A DNA stretch of 42,799 nt from Anaerolineales bacterium. GTDB lineage: Bacteria > Chloroflexota > Anaerolineae > Anaerolineales > UBA4823. The stretch lies in assembly GCA_020061105.1 (NCBI GenBank), contig JAGUYW010000015.1, positions 1 to 42,799 of the forward strand, read 5' to 3'. The notes under the pieces are model-generated. The model saw only the letters and a program-made list of their open reading frames with translations. It had not been told where the DNA came from and ran no database searches. Numbering within the stretch: the first letter of the stretch is position 1; the number at the start of each line of letters is the position of its first letter. The position numbers and the translations under genes were made by a program. Positions 28,960-36,844 of the stretch are shown in pieces.

Positions 28960-29280
28960 TCAACCATCATTTTCGCCCGGTTCTTCTGGAGTCAAATCAT
29001 CTGCTTCTGTTTCGGTCAAGTCAAAATCGTTGTCATAATACGCTTGCAAAACCTTGCGTGCATATTCGACCTGGCCATCCGGCACCAGCACCTGATTCGT
29101 TCCCAATGGGCCTACCACAAAACCATGCACCCGACCGACGCCTTCCATGGCAATCCTTACCGTCAATCCCTGGGATGTCAAAAAACCGCGGATGATTTCC
29201 GCCTGAAGCGCCCCCGCCACTTCATCAACAACCACCCACTGGTGGCTGATAGGTTCAAGTTCATTCAATTCACTATTCAT
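28960..29280 (-). CDS. DUF2007-like small protein
   Basis: A 106-residue acidic protein. The core ALQAEIIRGFLTSQGLTVRI followed by a VLVPDGQVEYARKVL helix resembles the DUF2007 putative signal-transducing fold (ferredoxin-like), found in many bacteria with no set function. The tail is an Asp/Glu-rich segment (about 88-106), probably disordered. GGAG lies about ten bases before the ATG. It converges with the M23 gene and diverges from the 29571 gene. Family assignment is by pattern and moderate. Confidence 0.7.
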   Translation of the reverse strand: MNSELNELEPISHQWVVVDEVAGALQAEIIRGFLTSQGLTVRIAMEGVGRVHGFVVGPLGTNQVLVPDGQVEYARKVLQAYYDNDFDLTETEADDLTPEEPGENDG

Positions 29281-29336: not shown

Positions 29337-29367
29337 TTTACAACCTGTCCTTAACATAGAGTATAAT
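29337..29367 (+). promoter_or_regulatory. Promoter with long leader for the 29571 gene
   Basis: TTTACA (29337-29342), a 19-base spacer and perfect TATAAT (29362-29367). Start near 29374 would leave a leader of about 197 bases. The 29281-29570 interval has no gene; it also holds an ACAACCTG direct repeat (29318, 29340) and a weak ACAACGA/TCGTTGT inverted repeat (29449-29485). A second -10-like TATAGC near 29511 may give a shorter leader. Confidence 0.4.
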
Positions 29368-29570
29368 AGTACTAGCTTAAAAGGCGCAGATTTACGAAAT
29401 GATGGCAGGCGCCAATACAGATTACCACTTCAGCAAGCAAGCAACTGCACAACGAACTCGCTCAAGAACACAGCAAGGTCGTTGTTTTGTCGCGCTGATT
29501 CAATATTATTATAGCCGATTGAAGAAGAAAAAGGTCTTTTTGACGCCGAACTAACGCTGTTGAGGATTTT

Positions 29571-31157
29571 ATGGTCATAGCAAAAACATTTATGGACGAA
29601 GAATATTGGGAAAGCTTCGCCCTCACAGAAGAGGATATTGAGTTTCTCTATAACCACTTGCTGGAATTAGAAACCCCGCTGACTTCGAAGGAAATGGTTG
29701 AAGCGCTGGTTGCCGAACGGATTCGCAACCACAAACAGGCCCTGGAAAAACAGCGCACATCGGGCGGAGATATCTACCAGCCTAAAGAGAATTTTTCCCT
29801 GAATCAGGAGTTGATCTTCCCACAATTAGATTGGAAGCATGGGAAAGTGGTCAACATTCGCCCTGGGCTGAACCCAGAAATAGCGGCCTTCAAAGTAATC
29901 GAAGTCCAGTTTGAAGAAGGCGCCCATAAAGAATTTGCCGCCGAGTTGGAAGATCACCTCCTCAACCAACCCATCCAGATTACTGACGACCAATCCTCGA
30001 TCGATGCTGCAATCGTTATTGAAGATTACTATGAAGACCTGGTCGCTACTCTGGAAGATGAACTGGAAACTAATCCGGGTTTTGTGCGGATCGCGGGACG
30101 CTGGTTCCCACGCTCCTTGCTTGTTGACATCAACGTAGGGCATCTGAACCTGGTAGAAGCCGTGCTCGATATGGCAGCCGGCGGGCCGATCTCTACCGAA
30201 GAACTACTTAAGCAAATCGAATTTCCGACCGATGTCAACACAAAGTTAGTGGAATTCTCGATGGATTTAGCGCTGGACGAAGATCAGCGCTTTGATGAAG
30301 TAGGACCTGCGGGAGATGTCTTATGGTTTCTCAAGCGGCTGGAGCCAGCCGAGGTGCTGGCGCCGCCAGTCTTTCTGCGTTACGCCGGAATGGAGACCGA
30401 TCGCTCCGTATTAACCAAAGAGATGCTGGCGTTGGAAAGCGAATTAGACGATGAACTTTCGCCGCTTTCCAGTAAGCACCTGAATCTATCAGATGATATC
30501 GATATCCGCCTGATCTTCCCTCACTGGCGTTCGGGCACCTTGCCTTTAGGCAGGCGAGTACGCCATCTCTTTCCAACCGCTTACGAAGCGCCCCGCATTC
30601 GTTTCATGTTGGTAGACGGCGAAAGCGGCGCAAAATTCCCGGGTTGGGTCGTGCGCGAAAAACGCTATGTATATGGGCTGGAGGATTGGTATTCGCAACA
30701 CGGTGTCATGCCAGGCAGCGTCATCCGGGTCCAGAAAGGCACGCAACCCGGCGAAGTAATCGTTCACACCGACAGCCGCCGCCCCAGCCGAGAATGGGTG
30801 CGCACGGTGTTGATCGGATCGGACGGCGGCGTGGTATTCGCGATGCTCAAACAAGTCGTGTCGACGCCCTTCGATGATCGCATGACCATCGCCATCCCTG
30901 ACAAGGAAGCCGTTGACCAGCTTTGGAATCATCACGCTCGAGAAGGCGCCGTCTTCGAACGGCTGGTGACCAACACGGTTCGTGAGTTGGCTAAGCTCAA
31001 TCCACAGAGCCATGTACACGCCAGCGAATTGTATGCAGCCATCAATATTTTACAGCGCTGCCCCCCCGGGCCAATTCTCAGTTTATTGGCCTCAAAATCG
31101 GCCTTCAATCACGTGGGAGATTTACACTTCCGGTTGAGCAGCGTGGATTATGATTAA
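29571..31157 (+). CDS. Unrecognised protein with possible winged-helix modules
   Basis: A soluble, acidic 528-residue protein that I do not recognise. Three segments look like winged-helix or HARE-type modules: about 15-55 (LTEEDIEFLYNHLLELETPL), about 205-235 (VEAVLDMAAGGPISTEELL) and about 465-520 (RELAKLNPQSHVHASELYAAI). The middle third (about 90-200, 310-450) is mixed alpha/beta, with a DWKHGKVVNIRPG segment. No membrane helix, no signal peptide, no catalytic motif. GAGG is five bases before the ATG. It is followed after 42 bases by a 138-residue gene with a similar C-terminal helix pattern. DNA or protein binding is an inference. Confidence 0.8.
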   Translation: MVIAKTFMDEEYWESFALTEEDIEFLYNHLLELETPLTSKEMVEALVAERIRNHKQALEKQRTSGGDIYQPKENFSLNQELIFPQLDWKHGKVVNIRPGLNPEIAAFKVIEVQFEEGAHKEFAAELEDHLLNQPIQITDDQSSIDAAIVIEDYYEDLVATLEDELETNPGFVRIAGRWFPRSLLVDINVGHLNLVEAVLDMAAGGPISTEELLKQIEFPTDVNTKLVEFSMDLALDEDQRFDEVGPAGDVLWFLKRLEPAEVLAPPVFLRYAGMETDRSVLTKEMLALESELDDELSPLSSKHLNLSDDIDIRLIFPHWRSGTLPLGRRVRHLFPTAYEAPRIRFMLVDGESGAKFPGWVVREKRYVYGLEDWYSQHGVMPGSVIRVQKGTQPGEVIVHTDSRRPSREWVRTVLIGSDGGVVFAMLKQVVSTPFDDRMTIAIPDKEAVDQLWNHHAREGAVFERLVTNTVRELAKLNPQSHVHASELYAAINILQRCPPGPILSLLASKSAFNHVGDLHFRLSSVDYD

Positions 31158-31199
31158 TGATTTGATGATTCAGGAGGGGTCTAACGACCGAAGCAGCGG

Positions 31200-31616
31200 A
31201 TGAGTCTGGTCAAACCTACCTTACAAACACCCTATCACATCGATTTCGACTGGTGGCGTCAAAATGACCGAGACTGGCGCGTCTACTTGCGTAATTTTCT
31301 ATGCCCAGAACACCAACGCGCCTTTGCGAACCTGGACTTCACAGAAAAGGTGGATTGGATCGATCCCAAAACGGCTGAAGTGCAACAGGTGGACGGCTTA
31401 CAAAACATTTTGATCACCCATTGCGCCCGCCAGGAGGTTTTCACTGCCCAACAATCCACCCTGGTGGACTCGGTATTTCGCATCTTCCTTTCAAACGGCA
31501 ATACCCCACTGAGTTCGGAAGAGTTGGCGGCCCAACTTAATCGCGATTCGATGACCATTTTAAGAACACTATCTGGCAAACGGATCTATAAAGGTCTGCG
31601 CCCGTGCCTGGATTAG
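31200..31616 (+). CDS. Unrecognised 138-residue protein, partner of the 29571 gene
   Basis: A soluble protein starting MSLVKPTLQTPYHIDFDWW. Its last 50 residues (VDSVFRIFLSNGNTPLSSEELAAQLNRDS) resemble the helix-turn-helix-like segments of the upstream protein, with the same PLSSEEL/PISTEEL turn, so the two may be related or interact. Central CPEHQ and THCARQEV segments give three Cys and some His but no clear metal site. AGGAGGGG is present but 22 bases before the ATG, with a GGTC-TAAC-GACC stem between; no nearer start codon is possible because an in-frame TAA lies at 31182. Function unknown. Confidence 0.75.
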   Translation: MSLVKPTLQTPYHIDFDWWRQNDRDWRVYLRNFLCPEHQRAFANLDFTEKVDWIDPKTAEVQQVDGLQNILITHCARQEVFTAQQSTLVDSVFRIFLSNGNTPLSSEELAAQLNRDSMTILRTLSGKRIYKGLRPCLD

Positions 31617-31625
31617 TTCGCTTAT

Positions 31626-31698
31626 GCCCCCGTAGCTCAATGGACAGAGCAGTAGCCTTCTAAGCTATTGGTTGTGGGTTCGAGTCCCGCCGGGGGCG
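31626..31698 (+). tRNA. tRNA-Arg (UCU anticodon)
   Basis: A 73-base tRNA. Acceptor stem GCCCCCG pairs with CGGGGGC (31691-31697); the discriminator is G and CCA is not encoded. The anticodon stem GTAGC/GCTAT holds a seven-base loop CTTCTAA with anticodon TCT at 31659-31661, which reads AGA (and AGG). The T arm contains GGTTCGAGTCC. It lies between two plus-strand genes and is probably cut from their transcript. Confidence 0.95.
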
Positions 31699-31727
31699 CC
31701 TACCTGGGTTGGAGAGAAGAAACAAAA

Positions 31728-32054
31728 ATGATGCGCCCATACACCTGGAGACCAGCTACCGATGTTTACGAGACCGATGAAGCGGTCATTGTGCGCGTTG
31801 AAGTGGCCGGAATGCGCGAAAGTGATTTTAGTCTGCAAATCAAAGGCCGGCATTTCGTCATTCAGGGTATTCGCTCCGATATTCAGGAGCGGCGCGCTTA
31901 CCACCAGATGGAAATCCGCTTTGGGGAGTTCGAAATCGAATTAGAACTGCCACACTCTATTGACGCAACCAGAATCGAAGCCTTGTACGAAAATGGCTTC
32001 TTACGTGTAACATTGCCCAAAGCTACGCCACGCCAGATATCGATCACATCATGA
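31728..32054 (+). CDS. Small heat-shock protein (Hsp20/alpha-crystallin)
   Basis: A 108-residue holdase chaperone. The alpha-crystallin domain fills almost the whole protein: YETDEAVIVRVEVAGM at the start, FEIELELPHSID in the middle, YENGFLRVTLPK at the end. The QISITS tail carries the I-x-I oligomerisation motif. The usual N-terminal arm is reduced to about ten residues, so large oligomers are doubtful. Two ATGs are adjacent (31728, 31731). The open frame upstream runs through the tRNA and is not coding. Located directly before lon, a fitting heat-shock pair. Confidence 0.9.
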   Translation: MMRPYTWRPATDVYETDEAVIVRVEVAGMRESDFSLQIKGRHFVIQGIRSDIQERRAYHQMEIRFGEFEIELELPHSIDATRIEALYENGFLRVTLPKATPRQISITS

Positions 32055-32084: not shown

Positions 32085-34682
32085 ATGCCAGCATCGCGTT
32101 GGAATTCTAGCATCCTTGAAATGCTTAACTGGCTCTATGAAGAGCAAAATGGGCTCGAGGAATTGATCGCGCATCCAATTATCCCACGGGTGGTGCAAAA
32201 CGAGCCCGAAACGCAGGGTGAGGCCGATTCACCAGAAGAATTACGCCTGCAAATCCCAAAAATCTTGCCTGTGCTGCCGTTGCGCGGCCTGGTTGTTTAC
32301 CCGCATACGGCTGTACCTTTGACAATCGGCCAAAACAGGTCCATCAAGTTGGTAGACGATGTAATGGATGGCGACGAACGTTTAATTGCCCTGTTTACAT
32401 CACGAGACCCCGAGTTGGAACTCCCTGGACCGGAAGACCTGTACACCATTGGAACGGTTGCCATGGTACACCGCCTGTTTCGCGCCCCTGACGGCACCAT
32501 GCGCCTGGTCGTGCAGGGGTTGGCGCGCTGTCGTCTGCAAGAAGTCGTTCAACAAGAGCCTTACTTAAAAGCGGTGGTCGAACTGGCTCCTGAAAACGAC
32601 GAACGGGGGCTGGAGTTGGAAGCCATGGCCCGCAACGCCCGCAGCCAGTTCGAACATATCGCTGATATGGTGCCTTCCATCCCGCGCGAATTGGTGACTT
32701 CGGTCGTCTCTTTGGAAGATGCGCTGCAAACCGTCTATACCATTTCGAATTTCCAGCGCATGGAACTGGAAGAGGCCCAGGCGCTCCTGGAACTGGACTC
32801 GATCTCGGATAAACTGCACCGGCTGGTTTCGATCCTGGCGCGTGAAGTGGAAGTGTTGGAAATCGGCCAAAAAATTCAGAACGAGGCGCGCTCCGAAATC
32901 GATAAGGTGCAGCGCGAATATTTCTTGCGAGAACAACTGAAAGCCATCCAACGCGAACTGGGCGAAGTGGATGAGCAGGCCGCCGAAGTTGAGGAATTCC
33001 GCCAAAAAATCGAGGCAGCGGGAATGCCAGAAGAAGCCGGCAAGCAAGCGCGCCGCGAGGTAGATCGCTTGAGCCGCCTGCCTGCTGCCGCCGCTGAGTA
33101 TGGCGTGATTCGCACCTACCTGGATTGGCTGGTTTCGCTGCCTTGGGCAGAGTCCACGCTCGATAATCTGGATATCGCTCATGCCCGGCAAGTGCTCGAC
33201 CAGGATCACTATGGGCTGGAAGATGTCAAAGAGCGGATCCTCGAATTTCTGGCGGTGCGCAAACTGCGCAAAGAGCGCGCCATTGAATTCAGCCAGGAAT
33301 CCTTGGATGAGATCCACCGCATCCGCGAAGGCGTGATCTTATGCTTCGTTGGCCCACCCGGCGTTGGCAAAACTTCGTTAGGCCGTTCCATCGCCCGAGC
33401 GCTGGGGCGAAAATTTGTGCGTATGTCCCTGGGAGGCATGCGCGACGAAGCAGAAATCCGCGGCCACCGCCGCACGTATATCGGCGCCATGCCAGGTCGC
33501 ATCATCCAGGCTTTGCGACGCATCGAAACCCGCAACCCTGTGTTTATGTTGGATGAAGTCGATAAATTGGTCTTCGATTTCCACGGCGACCCAGCCTCGG
33601 CGTTGTTGGAAGTTCTGGACCCTGAGCAAAACGTTGAGTTTCGCGATCATTACATGGAAGTACCTTTCAATTTATCCCAGGTCATGTTTATCACCACAGC
33701 CAACCAGCTTGAGCCGATCCCAATCGCCCTGCGCGATCGCATGGAGATCATCCATCTCTCCGGTTACACCGAGAGCGAGAAAATTTCCATCGCCAAAGGC
33801 TACCTGATTCCTCGCCAATTGATTGAAAACGGGTTGCGCACAGATGAAATCACTTTTAGCCAAGCAGGCCTGGAAACGATCATCCGCTCATTCACACGCG
33901 AAGCTGGCGTTCGCAACCTGGAACGCGAGATCGGCTCTATCTGTCGCAAGGTGGTGACCCAAATTGCGGAGGCGAATGGGAATTCAGAGTCAACGGAAAG
34001 CGCTCCGGCTACCGTGATTGACCCGGCAAAAGTATTGGAATTGCTTGGCCGGCCGCGCTTCTTCGAAGATGAAGAAATTGCCCGGCGCACCTCCATCCCC
34101 GGTGTGGCGACGGGACTGGCTTGGACGCCCGTAGGCGGGGATGTGTTATTTATCGAAGCAACCCGTATGCCCGGTAACAAGGGATATCAGATCACCGGAT
34201 CGATCGGAAACGTCATGCAAGAATCCGCCCACGCTGCCTTGTCTTATGTGCGCGCCAAAGCCGAAAGCCTGGGCCTGGATGCTGAATTCTTCGAAAAGGC
34301 TGACATCCACCTGCATATCCCCTCCGGGTCGCAGCCGAAAGATGGACCATCGGCTGGCGTTGCCATTGCAACCGCCCTGGTATCGCTGATCTCGGGCCGG
34401 CCTGTTAAACCCGACGTAGGCATGACAGGAGAAATCACGCTGCGCGGCCAGGTGATGCCGGTGGGAGGCGTGAAGGAAAAAGTGCTGGCAGCCCACCGTT
34501 CCGGCTTAAAAACAGTCATTTTACCCACTTTAAACGAGGCCGATCTGGATGACCTGGCGCCAGAAGTTCGCCAGGCGATTCACTTTATTTTTGCAGACTA
34601 TATCGAAGATGTCATTCATGCCGCCCTCGAACCGGCGCCTACCGAACTTGCCCCTGAACAAGATGTGAGCGAGACAAAATGA
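32085..34682 (+). CDS. lon: ATP-dependent Lon protease
   Basis: A cytoplasmic AAA+ protease of 865 residues that degrades unfolded and regulatory proteins. The LonN substrate domain begins near residue 60 ([14 protein letters not shown]); a coiled coil follows; Walker A GPPGVGKT is near 424-431; the peptidase has catalytic S756 in PKDGPSAG and K799 in GGVKEK. The N-terminus is about 55 residues longer than Escherichia coli Lon, so ATG 32121 or a later start cannot be excluded, but AAGG lies seven bases before 32085. The last four bases overlap the next gene (ATGA). Downstream of hsp20. Confidence 0.97.
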
Positions 34683-35080: not shown

Positions 35081-36844
35081 GTGGCAAAGAAACGAAACCG
35101 CGCCCCCGTGCAGTGGCACATGATTGACGTGCATTTACATACCCCCGCTTCCAGCGACTACCAACAGCCGGGGATAACCTTTTTAGATATTTTGCACCGC
35201 GCCGAGAGTCGCGGTTTGGAAATGATTGCCTTCACCGACCATAACACGGTCGCTGGCTATCGCAAAATCCAAGAGGAGATCCAACAACTCAAGCTGCTCG
35301 AAAATTTGCGTCGCATCTTGCCTGAAGAACAGGCCCGCCTGACAGAATACCGCCGTCTGATGGATAAAATCCTGATTTTACCGGCCTTTGAATTTACAGC
35401 CACCTTCGGATTTCACATCCTTTGCCTGTTCCCACCCGAGAAACCGGTTCGAGAAATCGAACACATCTTACTCGATCTCAATATCCCCCCGGATCAACTT
35501 GATTTGGGATCGGCAACGGTGGGAGCGACTACAGATGTGCTGACCGCCTACCGTACTGTCGTTGAAGCGGGTGGATTGGTAATTGCAGCGCACGCTAACT
35601 CCAGTAATGGCGTGGCGATGCGAGGCTTCTCATTTGGCGGGCAGACGAAAATTGCTTACACGCAAGATGAAAACCTGCACGCTTTGGAAGTGACCGACCT
35701 GGAAAACAAGGGCAAACACGCCACAGCCGCGTTTTTCAATGGCACCAAACCGGAATATCCCCGGCGAATGCACTGCATTCAAGGCTCCGATGCGCACCGG
35801 TTGACGACTGACCCGCAGCGAAAAAAGAACCTGGGCGTCGGCGAACGCGCCACCGATGTCTTGTTACCAGAGATCAGTTTCGAAGCTTTGAAGGAACTCT
35901 TCGAGAGCAACGATTTCGCTCGCACCCGGCCACACCGCCATATTGCCGAACCCGCCTTCGATTTCATTCACGCTGCCCAAGAAGAAGGTCCCAACATTAT
36001 CCAGGATTTTCACGAAAACATGGCAGTGCGGGGCGGCAAACGCTACTCCATTATCGCCGATGTATGCGCCTTCGCTAATGCCAACGGCGGAACGCTTTAT
36101 ATCGGCTTGCAATCGGACCCCAAGAAACCGATCCCAGGGGTCTCGGAACCAGAACATAGTATCAACCAGTTGGAAAAAGATCTCGACGACCGCATCAGCC
36201 CGCCTTTGCCTGTTACCGTGGATATTCATGAGGTAGCCGGCAACAAGAAAATTATTCGCATCCTGGTGCCACGCGGCGCTGAACCGCCCTATGCGGTAGA
36301 CGATAACAAGATTTACGTAAGGGCAGAGGCGGAGACCGTGCTGGCAGTGCGCGATGAAATTGTCGGGTTGGTGATGCGCGGCGCAAGCCGCCTGCCATCG
36401 GTCGCCGAAAGCCAGGTTGAAAACCCGCTTAACATCGCAGCCATCCCTCCCAGCCAACCAACAGATGAGAGCGGATTCGATGAAGCCGCCCTGGCCCCGC
36501 GCACTGGCGTCGAGGTAGTTGCGGTTGAAGAGCGCAACCAGGCGCGTTATTACACCCTGCGCGATCTACGCAATGGAAACGTGGTCAAAAACGTTACGCG
36601 CAATTCGGCGCGCCGCCTGTGGCACTATGCTCTCACCAGCTTCGACAAGCTGCCGTCGGATGTTTCGCAAGCGCCCATTCAATGGCAAAGCAACTTCGGA
36701 TTGATCCAGCGCCAGAAGCAGGGCAAGATGGTGCGCTACGATTTAATTCAACACGTTTCAGACGGCTATCGGTTTTATTTTGGCGTTACAGAAGACGGTA
36801 TTCATGGGCCGTGGAAAATGTTGGTAGGACAGGATGACGATTGA
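35081..36844 (+). CDS. PHP phosphoesterase fused to AlbA_2 (Schlafen-like) domain
   Basis: A 587-residue three-part protein. An N-terminal PHP metallo-phosphoesterase domain (about 13-290) has HLH (18-20), FTDHN (H54), a later H112, H171 (AAHANSS) and GSDAH (237-239), the set expected for a trinuclear metal site. An AlbA_2-type domain (about 310-425) has [15 protein letters not shown], the signature of Schlafen AlbA_2 modules that bind nucleic acid. A C-terminal domain (about 470-587) is unrecognised. Start is GTG 35081 with weak ribosome site. It overlaps the next GNAT by 11 bases. A nuclease or nucleic-acid phosphoesterase role is plausible but not shown. Confidence 0.85.

Follow-up and report, generated by a model that had tools for sequence, protein, structure and literature searches.

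Two adjacent genes in the genome of an Anaerolineales bacterium (contig JAGUYW010000015.1) raise the question of what a pair of proteins may do that is matched in nearly all related genomes sampled, although both members score below the curated cut-offs of Pfam and NCBIfam. Both genes lie in a stretch of 42,799 nucleotides, referred to as the window, on the same strand with a gap of 42 bases, and probably form an operon (Table 1). An earlier note on this DNA had given their positions and protein lengths exactly, and had found them to be free of known catalytic motifs, which agrees with our searches of Pfam, NCBIfam, PADLOC and PHROGs: PADLOC gave zero hits for the pair and PHROGs a single one, at chance level, with the small protein (E 0.22). 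Phages and plasmids searched with the large protein yielded no match, and nothing among viral structures matched it at E ≤ 0.001. Profile searches of PDB sequences with four profiles returned no reliable match and Foldseek found no PDB match for either protein at E ≤ 0.001. Within a partial coverage of titles and abstracts, we found no published work on either gene or on B3 domains of Chloroflexota.

Table 1. Features of the gene pair and its immediate surroundings, with positions in the window.
Feature	Position	Strand	Basis
TAGAGTATAATA, probable promoter element (-10) upstream of the pair	29357..29368	+	upstream motif, genome counts
Large protein gene, 528 aa	29571..31157	+	ORF; match in 58/61 genomes and 275/298 class genomes
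Residues 8–66, N-terminal helix-turn-helix-like unit	29592..29768	+	AlphaFold2
Residues 67–133, SH3-like barrel	29769..29969	+	AlphaFold2; structural row for residues 74–125, Z 6.3
Residues 145–259, helix and winged helix, RNA polymerase delta-like shape	30003..30347	+	structural rows, Z 7.7 and 7.6
Residues 306–404, predicted B3 DNA-binding fold	30486..30782	+	first 20 structural rows, profile test, charge
Residues 405–441, two long strands	30783..30893	+	AlphaFold2
Residues 442–526, C-terminal winged helix	30894..31148	+	AlphaFold2; forkhead-like rows, Z up to 6.8
Small protein gene, 138 aa	31200..31616	+	ORF; match in 58/61 genomes; adjoins large gene
Residues 35–75 of the small protein, with C35, H38, H74 and C75 as probable metal ligands	31302..31424	+	alignment
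Residues 85–138 of the small protein, winged-helix-like	31452..31613	+	AlphaFold2; weak matches
tRNA-Arg(tct), frequent neighbour in the order, outside the unit	31626..31700	+	

Conservation and surroundings of the gene pair

The 61 genomes counted in Table 1 comprise 60 relatives and the assembly of the window itself, with a completeness of 54% and one match per gene. In the wider class sample (Anaerolineae, Chloroflexota), nearly always one match per genome was obtained for the large gene, and 182 of the 189 high-quality genomes carry it, with 7 of 189 lacking a match. A scan of contigs with the large family confirmed at least 501 places, the best 80 of which were used as named loci; these are partly the same contigs as those of the 61-genome set, and the two sets are thus not independent. 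Titles among the named loci include Longilinea, Levilinea, Leptolinea, Thermanaerothrix and Anaerolinea thermolimosa, itself a member of the Anaerolineae, Chloroflexota. Since records of the cultured strains Longilinea arvoryzae KOME-1, Levilinea saccharolytica KIBI-1, Anaerolinea thermolimosa IMO-1 and Thermanaerothrix daxensis GNS-1 are found here, the pair can be tested in cultured organisms.

In 79 of these best 80 of at least 501 places, the large gene is immediately followed by the small one, on the same strand and at a distance of 6–148 bases, and in the lone exception the sequence stops 102 bases past the large gene. Twenty wider loci, one from the order itself and 19 from orders elsewhere in the class, showed the pair in 17 cases and, judged by coordinates, also in L180 and L185, which amounts to 19 of 20; in the last one, L190, the contig end cuts the locus. 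In the loci sampled, both genes thus occur together and side by side, in line with the pair supposed earlier.

As had also been described earlier, the pair precedes tRNA-Arg(tct), an hsp20 gene (ORF 31668–32054, a match to PF00011) and lon (Lon-like ORF 32085–34682). The neighbours were counted in the 79 two-gene loci, each time in those with enough flanking DNA, and all order-level figures refer to the best 80 of at least 501 places. In 63 of 73 order-level loci, tRNA-Arg(tct) is found at most 500 bases downstream, lon and hsp20 lie within 5 kb downstream in 48 and 42 of 56, respectively, a LysM/M23 gene is located upstream in 48 of 69, and a DUF2007 gene is present in 24 of 69. In the 20 wider loci, whose flanks are unequal in length and whose labels covered genes of the window, neither hsp20 nor lon was labelled (0/20), and tRNA-Arg is adjacent in six. 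Since hsp20 and lon are frequent in the order and unlabelled in the wider loci, their arrangement resembles common synteny, which fades as relatedness decreases; the conserved unit is the pair. The possible role in stress that the earlier note had drawn from hsp20 and lon, and with it the reading as a stress operon, was therefore abandoned.

Further features were noticed around the pair. The listed hsp20 ORF begins within the tRNA-Arg gene, so that the real start codon of hsp20 is probably located later. At positions 35081–36844, the window encodes a protein of 587 aa that combines a PHP-like N-terminus, below the cut-off, with a Schlafen AlbA_2 domain (E 7e-17), and relatives of this protein are found downstream of lon in many order-level loci. 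A divergent small gene at 28960–29280 possesses a near-cut-off match to DUF2007 (25.3 bits; cut-off 25.7).

Upstream of the large gene, the motif GTATAAT is present in 77 of 77 upstream regions, and the longer form [AT]A[AG][AG]GTATAAT in 55 of 77 and just once elsewhere in 1.19 Mb, which at first made it look gene-specific. In seven whole genomes, TARRGTATAATW occurs 33 times, six of these before the large gene, compared to 18 occurrences of the backwards control. Among 30 TARRGTATAATW sites, 26 are followed on the same strand by an ORF of at least 200 codons starting within 400 bases downstream (109 of 300 for random places), and five of 30 fall within a long open frame (220 of 300 for random places). 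As the sites occur elsewhere in the genomes and mostly ahead of ORFs, a pair-specific operator was rejected in favor of a promoter form: the TARRGTATAATW element of the window looks like a strong form of the -10 promoter element that is common to many genes, although TARRGTATAATW may also represent an operator common to a small regulon.

A predicted B3 fold in an acidic multi-domain protein

AlphaFold2 models were obtained with 63 and 64 aligned sequences for the large and the small protein, respectively, and reached a mean pLDDT of 89.5 (pTM 0.75) for the former and of 89.0 (pTM 0.82) for the latter. The three helix-turn-helix-like modules that had been assigned to the large protein reappear in its model as winged-helix-like folds at about residues 10–63, 189–255 and 445–522, and the similar module of the small protein at about residues 88–135. 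The list of modules was incomplete, as the B3 fold at residues 307–404 and an SH3-like barrel at about residues 74–125 had been overlooked; a linker joins the helix and delta-shaped winged helix of residues 146–255 to the B3 barrel, which is modelled at residues 309–399 and followed by two strands reaching residue 430. The turn described as shared between both proteins could also be traced in the form P[ILM][ST][ST][EK]E[LM], which is found in the large protein at positions 36 and 206 and in the small one at position 103; the narrower P[IL]S[ST]EEL of the earlier note occurs once per protein. The wider pattern is absent from 705 other mechanical ORFs of at least 200 aa (291,803 aa in total), and none of 20,000 shuffles (0/20,000) yielded three matches or more, counts that are descriptive because the pattern was widened once the sites were known.

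For structural comparison, VIA-align 2 was employed on the 1000 best PDB chains of Foldseek. The 20 best rows are all filled by B3 proteins, LlaJI and At1g16640 among them, with Z scores of 8.0–10.9 over 91–103 residues. VAL1 (6j9a) leads with Z 10.9 and an rmsd of 2.8 over 97 residues, and is joined by ARF1 (Z 10.9), FUS3 (10.8), LlaJI (9.1) and RAV1 (8.4), while the restriction enzymes NgoAVII (Z 7.4) and BfiI (6.9) follow below the first 20. The model is well defined in this region, with mean pLDDT values of 80–97 for the ten-residue blocks of residues 311–410. Taken together, the modelled structure supports a B3 pseudobarrel fold for residues 307–404.

We then compared a profile of residues 298–412 (78 members) with six plant B3 sequences from PDB chains by hhalign, which resulted in a score of 29.6, a probability of 58.6% and a single-comparison P of 9.5e-5. 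This score exceeds those of all 200 column shuffles (mean 11.7, maximum 22.9), of the reversed profile (13.8) and of windows of the large protein starting at or before residue 241 (at most 14.1). On their own, seven relatives from other classes matched the plant B3 sequences weakly (probability 1.5%, P 0.035) in a sensible register, and matched the B3 region of the large protein with P 3.5e-10. At the level of sequence profiles, a relation to known B3 domains thus receives moderate support. With the Pfam B3 model (PF02362), 18 members remained without a hit even at E values up to 1, and none of 199 class genomes (0/199) had a match above its cut-off, so the B3 domain is a divergent one, and the membership we claim is that of the B3 fold and superfamily, not of the Pfam family PF02362.

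The B3 region is also set apart by its charge. Averaged over 78–80 family members, the large protein bears a net charge of -24.1, to which the N-terminal helix-turn-helix contributes -5.5, the SH3-like barrel -2.0, the delta-shaped part -10.8 and the linker -7.4, whereas the B3 region amounts to +5.0, the two strands to +0.1 and the C-terminal winged helix to -0.9. B3 is thereby the sole clearly basic part of an acidic protein, and the winged helices, being acidic or neutral, are not the likeliest part to contact DNA. The earlier description of a DNA- or protein-binding pair is still the best reading of both genes, yet it had missed B3, the most informative domain. R.CglI and R.NgoAVII are reported to bind their recognition sequence by B3 domains (PMC4267653), and in plant B3 domains, which display a positive surface, the N- and C-arm loops touch the major groove (PMC9391945). 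By analogy, these reports support the notion that the large protein may work like a B3 DNA binder.

Barrel folds are versatile, and a B3-like barrel might instead bind RNA or protein in a complex devoted to translation or RNA handling, to which the tRNA-Arg gene so often found downstream at order level (63/73 among the best 80 of at least 501) would be congenial. As this gene adjoins the pair in just six of the 20 wider loci, and the barrel is basic with a profile similarity to B3, we judge this reading to be very improbable. The rows of LlaJI, NgoAVII and BfiI could likewise hint at a restriction or defence protein that has decayed or been domesticated, as restriction enzymes are where bacterial B3 domains are known from, and an ancient domestication is conceivable. 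The pair is, however, without a PADLOC hit and without a nuclease, helicase or methyltransferase in Pfam, the large protein matches no phage or plasmid, and it is spread class-wide at about one match per genome, all of which makes such an origin most improbable.

The best rows other than B3 belong to RNA polymerase delta (8x6g_E being delta), with Z 7.7 and 7.6 for residues 188–342 and 186–265; for winged-helix rows such as these (Z 6–8), a Z below 8 in VIA-align 2 may reflect a common arrangement. PF05066 (HARE-HTH) gave no hit in the large protein or the family members tested, and homology to HARE-HTH by sequence was rejected, since the hhalign score of 15.3 against Bacillus subtilis delta lies within those of the shuffles (up to 25.4). 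The B3 window scored 19.2 against delta, above the delta-shaped part itself, which we attribute to the noise of single-sequence comparisons. HARE-HTH was found above its cut-off in four of 61 genomes, in open frames of 304–525 codons, and the two carriers examined (L249, L250) look like restriction endonucleases. These data bear on the idea that the protein stands in for delta, its winged helices binding RNA polymerase and its B3 domain steadying DNA without sequence choice. The two delta rows at about residues 186–265, the acidity of this part, the rarity of HARE-HTH and the near-universal presence in the sampled genomes, as expected for a general factor, speak for it; the sequence score, which exceeds neither the shuffles nor the B3 window, and the far bigger size of the large protein compared to delta speak against it. 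We regard a delta stand-in as possible, if rather unlikely.

The small protein and the spread of the modules

The secondary structure of the small protein model fits a winged helix. Its best structural row is FAM91A1 with Z 4.4, followed at lower values by the winged-helix rows of LexA, Rex, ArsR and DR2539 (Z 2.0–2.9), which may reflect a common arrangement, and below the Pfam cut-off WH_GDS1 appears in six of 17 members (best E 0.0019). As Foldseek yielded no match, the N-terminal part of the small protein is left without an assigned fold, which is not to say that its fold is new. We do not claim common ancestry with the winged helices of the large protein (hhalign score 28.3, probability 7%, 33 columns). 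In an alignment of 151 rows, in which the small protein of the window is counted twice, the positions C35, H38, H74 and C75 read CHHC, CCCC or CCHC in 126 rows. As to C35 and C75, 131 rows retain the two together and 18 have lost the two together, with two rows retaining C75 only and none C35 only, and the rows without them are scattered over many loci. Four cysteine or histidine positions that are mostly kept or lost together probably constitute a structural metal site, and a disulfide is less likely.

Homologues of the small protein are also found outside the class (L199–L218); ten of them gave no Pfam match above cut-off, and they often carry CxxC...CC in place of CxxH...HC. Their neighbours vary and include ruvC/ruvA, pheT-moeA and mobB. 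An accessory complex of DNA repair or recombination would be in line with ruvC or ruvA adjoining the small-protein gene in L204 and L213, which lie outside the class and concern the small protein only, with a YebC-like gene nearby in seven of 20 outside-class loci, and with the capability of SH3-like, winged-helix and B3 folds alike to bind DNA. Other neighbours are met elsewhere, such as the MoeA family in six of 20 loci and pheT in L205 and L211, and we consider this alternative quite improbable.

Beyond the class, both parts of the pair go separate ways. A profile of the C-terminal half (B3 and winged helix) matched in 73 of 301 genomes of the phylum, 35 inside and 38 outside the class, a few of them marginally, and outside the class mostly in open frames of about 540–960 codons. 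Seven proteins from other classes align with residues 130–516 of the large protein (P 9.2e-27) and differ at the N-terminus; together with the match of their B3 region, this argues for winged helix-B3-winged helix as an old unit. The small protein is matched in 74 of 301 phylum genomes, 37 of which lie outside the class. There, matches to the C-terminal half and the small protein coincide in one genome (G563), in which the small match is marginal (E 0.003). In other Chloroflexota classes, winged helix-B3-winged helix is thus retained, but the small gene is absent in nearly all cases. In four loci (L090:3083-9922, L091:1-5383, L092:3700-10003 and L093:420-5518), the other-class B3 relative is followed by a HEAT-repeat protein, labelled as such by Pfam for L090 and L091, and by further genes that resemble PIG-L, FemAB-like and MurF genes.

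The opposite reduction was encountered within the class. Weak hits to the large gene stem from 17 class genomes of six families, and in 16 of these the C-terminal half had no match, with one weak match in the remaining genome. In two of the 17 that were examined, from different families (L095:3617-4849 and L096:5214-6389), the large gene consists of the N-terminal half only (about 250–266 aa) and is directly followed by the small gene, and it hence appears that in other Anaerolineae the N-terminal half has been retained together with the small gene. These two cases point to the N-terminal half as the partner of the small protein. Since the B3 half and the small protein each accompany the delta-shaped or N-terminal part in the absence of the other, the N-terminal half is the likely junction between them, and since 16 of the 17 genomes with a probable N-half-only gene show no match to the B3 half, contact of B3 with DNA cannot be the whole function.

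A bolder proposal is that of an ancestral Chloroflexota transcription or chromatin factor with a B3 domain. The winged helix-B3-winged helix protein would predate the split of several Chloroflexota classes and would in Anaerolineae have been joined with the widespread metal-site winged-helix protein of the phylum, giving a general factor of two subunits that resembles TFIIE and links RNA polymerase to B3-bound DNA. We hold this scenario to be unlikely. No B3 regulator is known to us outside of plants and restriction enzymes, and the factor, if real, would be the first of its kind and bear on the origin of plant B3 factors.

A candidate core regulator and its known counterparts

The reading we prefer is that of a core DNA-binding regulator that is specific to the lineage of the Anaerolineae and normally present as a single copy, and we give it about an even chance of being correct. 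The large protein would grip DNA through its basic B3 domain by inserting two arms into the major groove, as do plant and restriction B3 domains, perhaps aided in holding the DNA by the C-terminal winged helix. The acidic N-terminal half with helix-turn-helix, SH3-like barrel and delta-shaped winged helix would serve as the protein-binding half, which may dock the small, putatively metal-stabilized winged-helix-like protein and most likely also a constant cellular partner, e.g. RNA polymerase. The latter is favored because delta provides the nearest structures other than B3, because HARE-HTH is rare (4/61) and because the pair is widely present. Such a complex would have a global role, as a factor of transcription or of the nucleoid, and would not be a local switch.

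The literature treats B3 as a transcription factor domain specific to plants, to which the parts of restriction enzymes that bind DNA are related (PMC6599366, PMC4267653). A basic B3 domain in a core gene of a bacterial class, accompanied by a fixed partner, would extend B3 to bacterial housekeeping regulation and would provide two genes that are highly conserved but unannotated with a function open to testing. None of the folds is new in itself, but to our knowledge the way in which they are combined, their core status and the partner are.

When compared to RNA polymerase delta, residues 186–265 are acidic and resemble its winged-helix outline at a level (Z 7.7 and 7.6) that may reflect a common arrangement, whereas significant sequence similarity is lacking and the part is embedded here in a multi-domain protein. 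TFE consists of paired winged-helix subunits, one of which has a metal site, so that our pair, as a putative two-subunit set of winged-helix-like proteins with a probable metal site in one of them, resembles TFIIE/TFE in some of its parts, and the TFIIE-beta core is found among the structural rows (Z 7.5, rmsd 6.5). Profile searches of PDB sequences revealed no sequence similarity to TFIIE/TFE, and we know of no counterpart of the B3 or SH3-like parts in them. With R.NgoAVII/R.CglI, BfiI and LlaJI, the large protein has in common the B3 fold within a bacterial protein, but it is without a nuclease domain in the Pfam search and is encoded by a core gene of its class instead of a patchy defence gene. 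Plant B3 proteins differ in that their domain is flanked by AP2, zf-CW or ARF domains and not by winged helices and an SH3-like barrel, and the bacterial domain described here scores under the B3 cut-off of Pfam; with VAL1, FUS3, LEC2, ARF1/5 and RAV1 it nevertheless shares the same fold over 97 residues and, in the hhalign alignment, the core yv-x-GL-x-x-W/F ... L-x-x-G behind an FP stretch.
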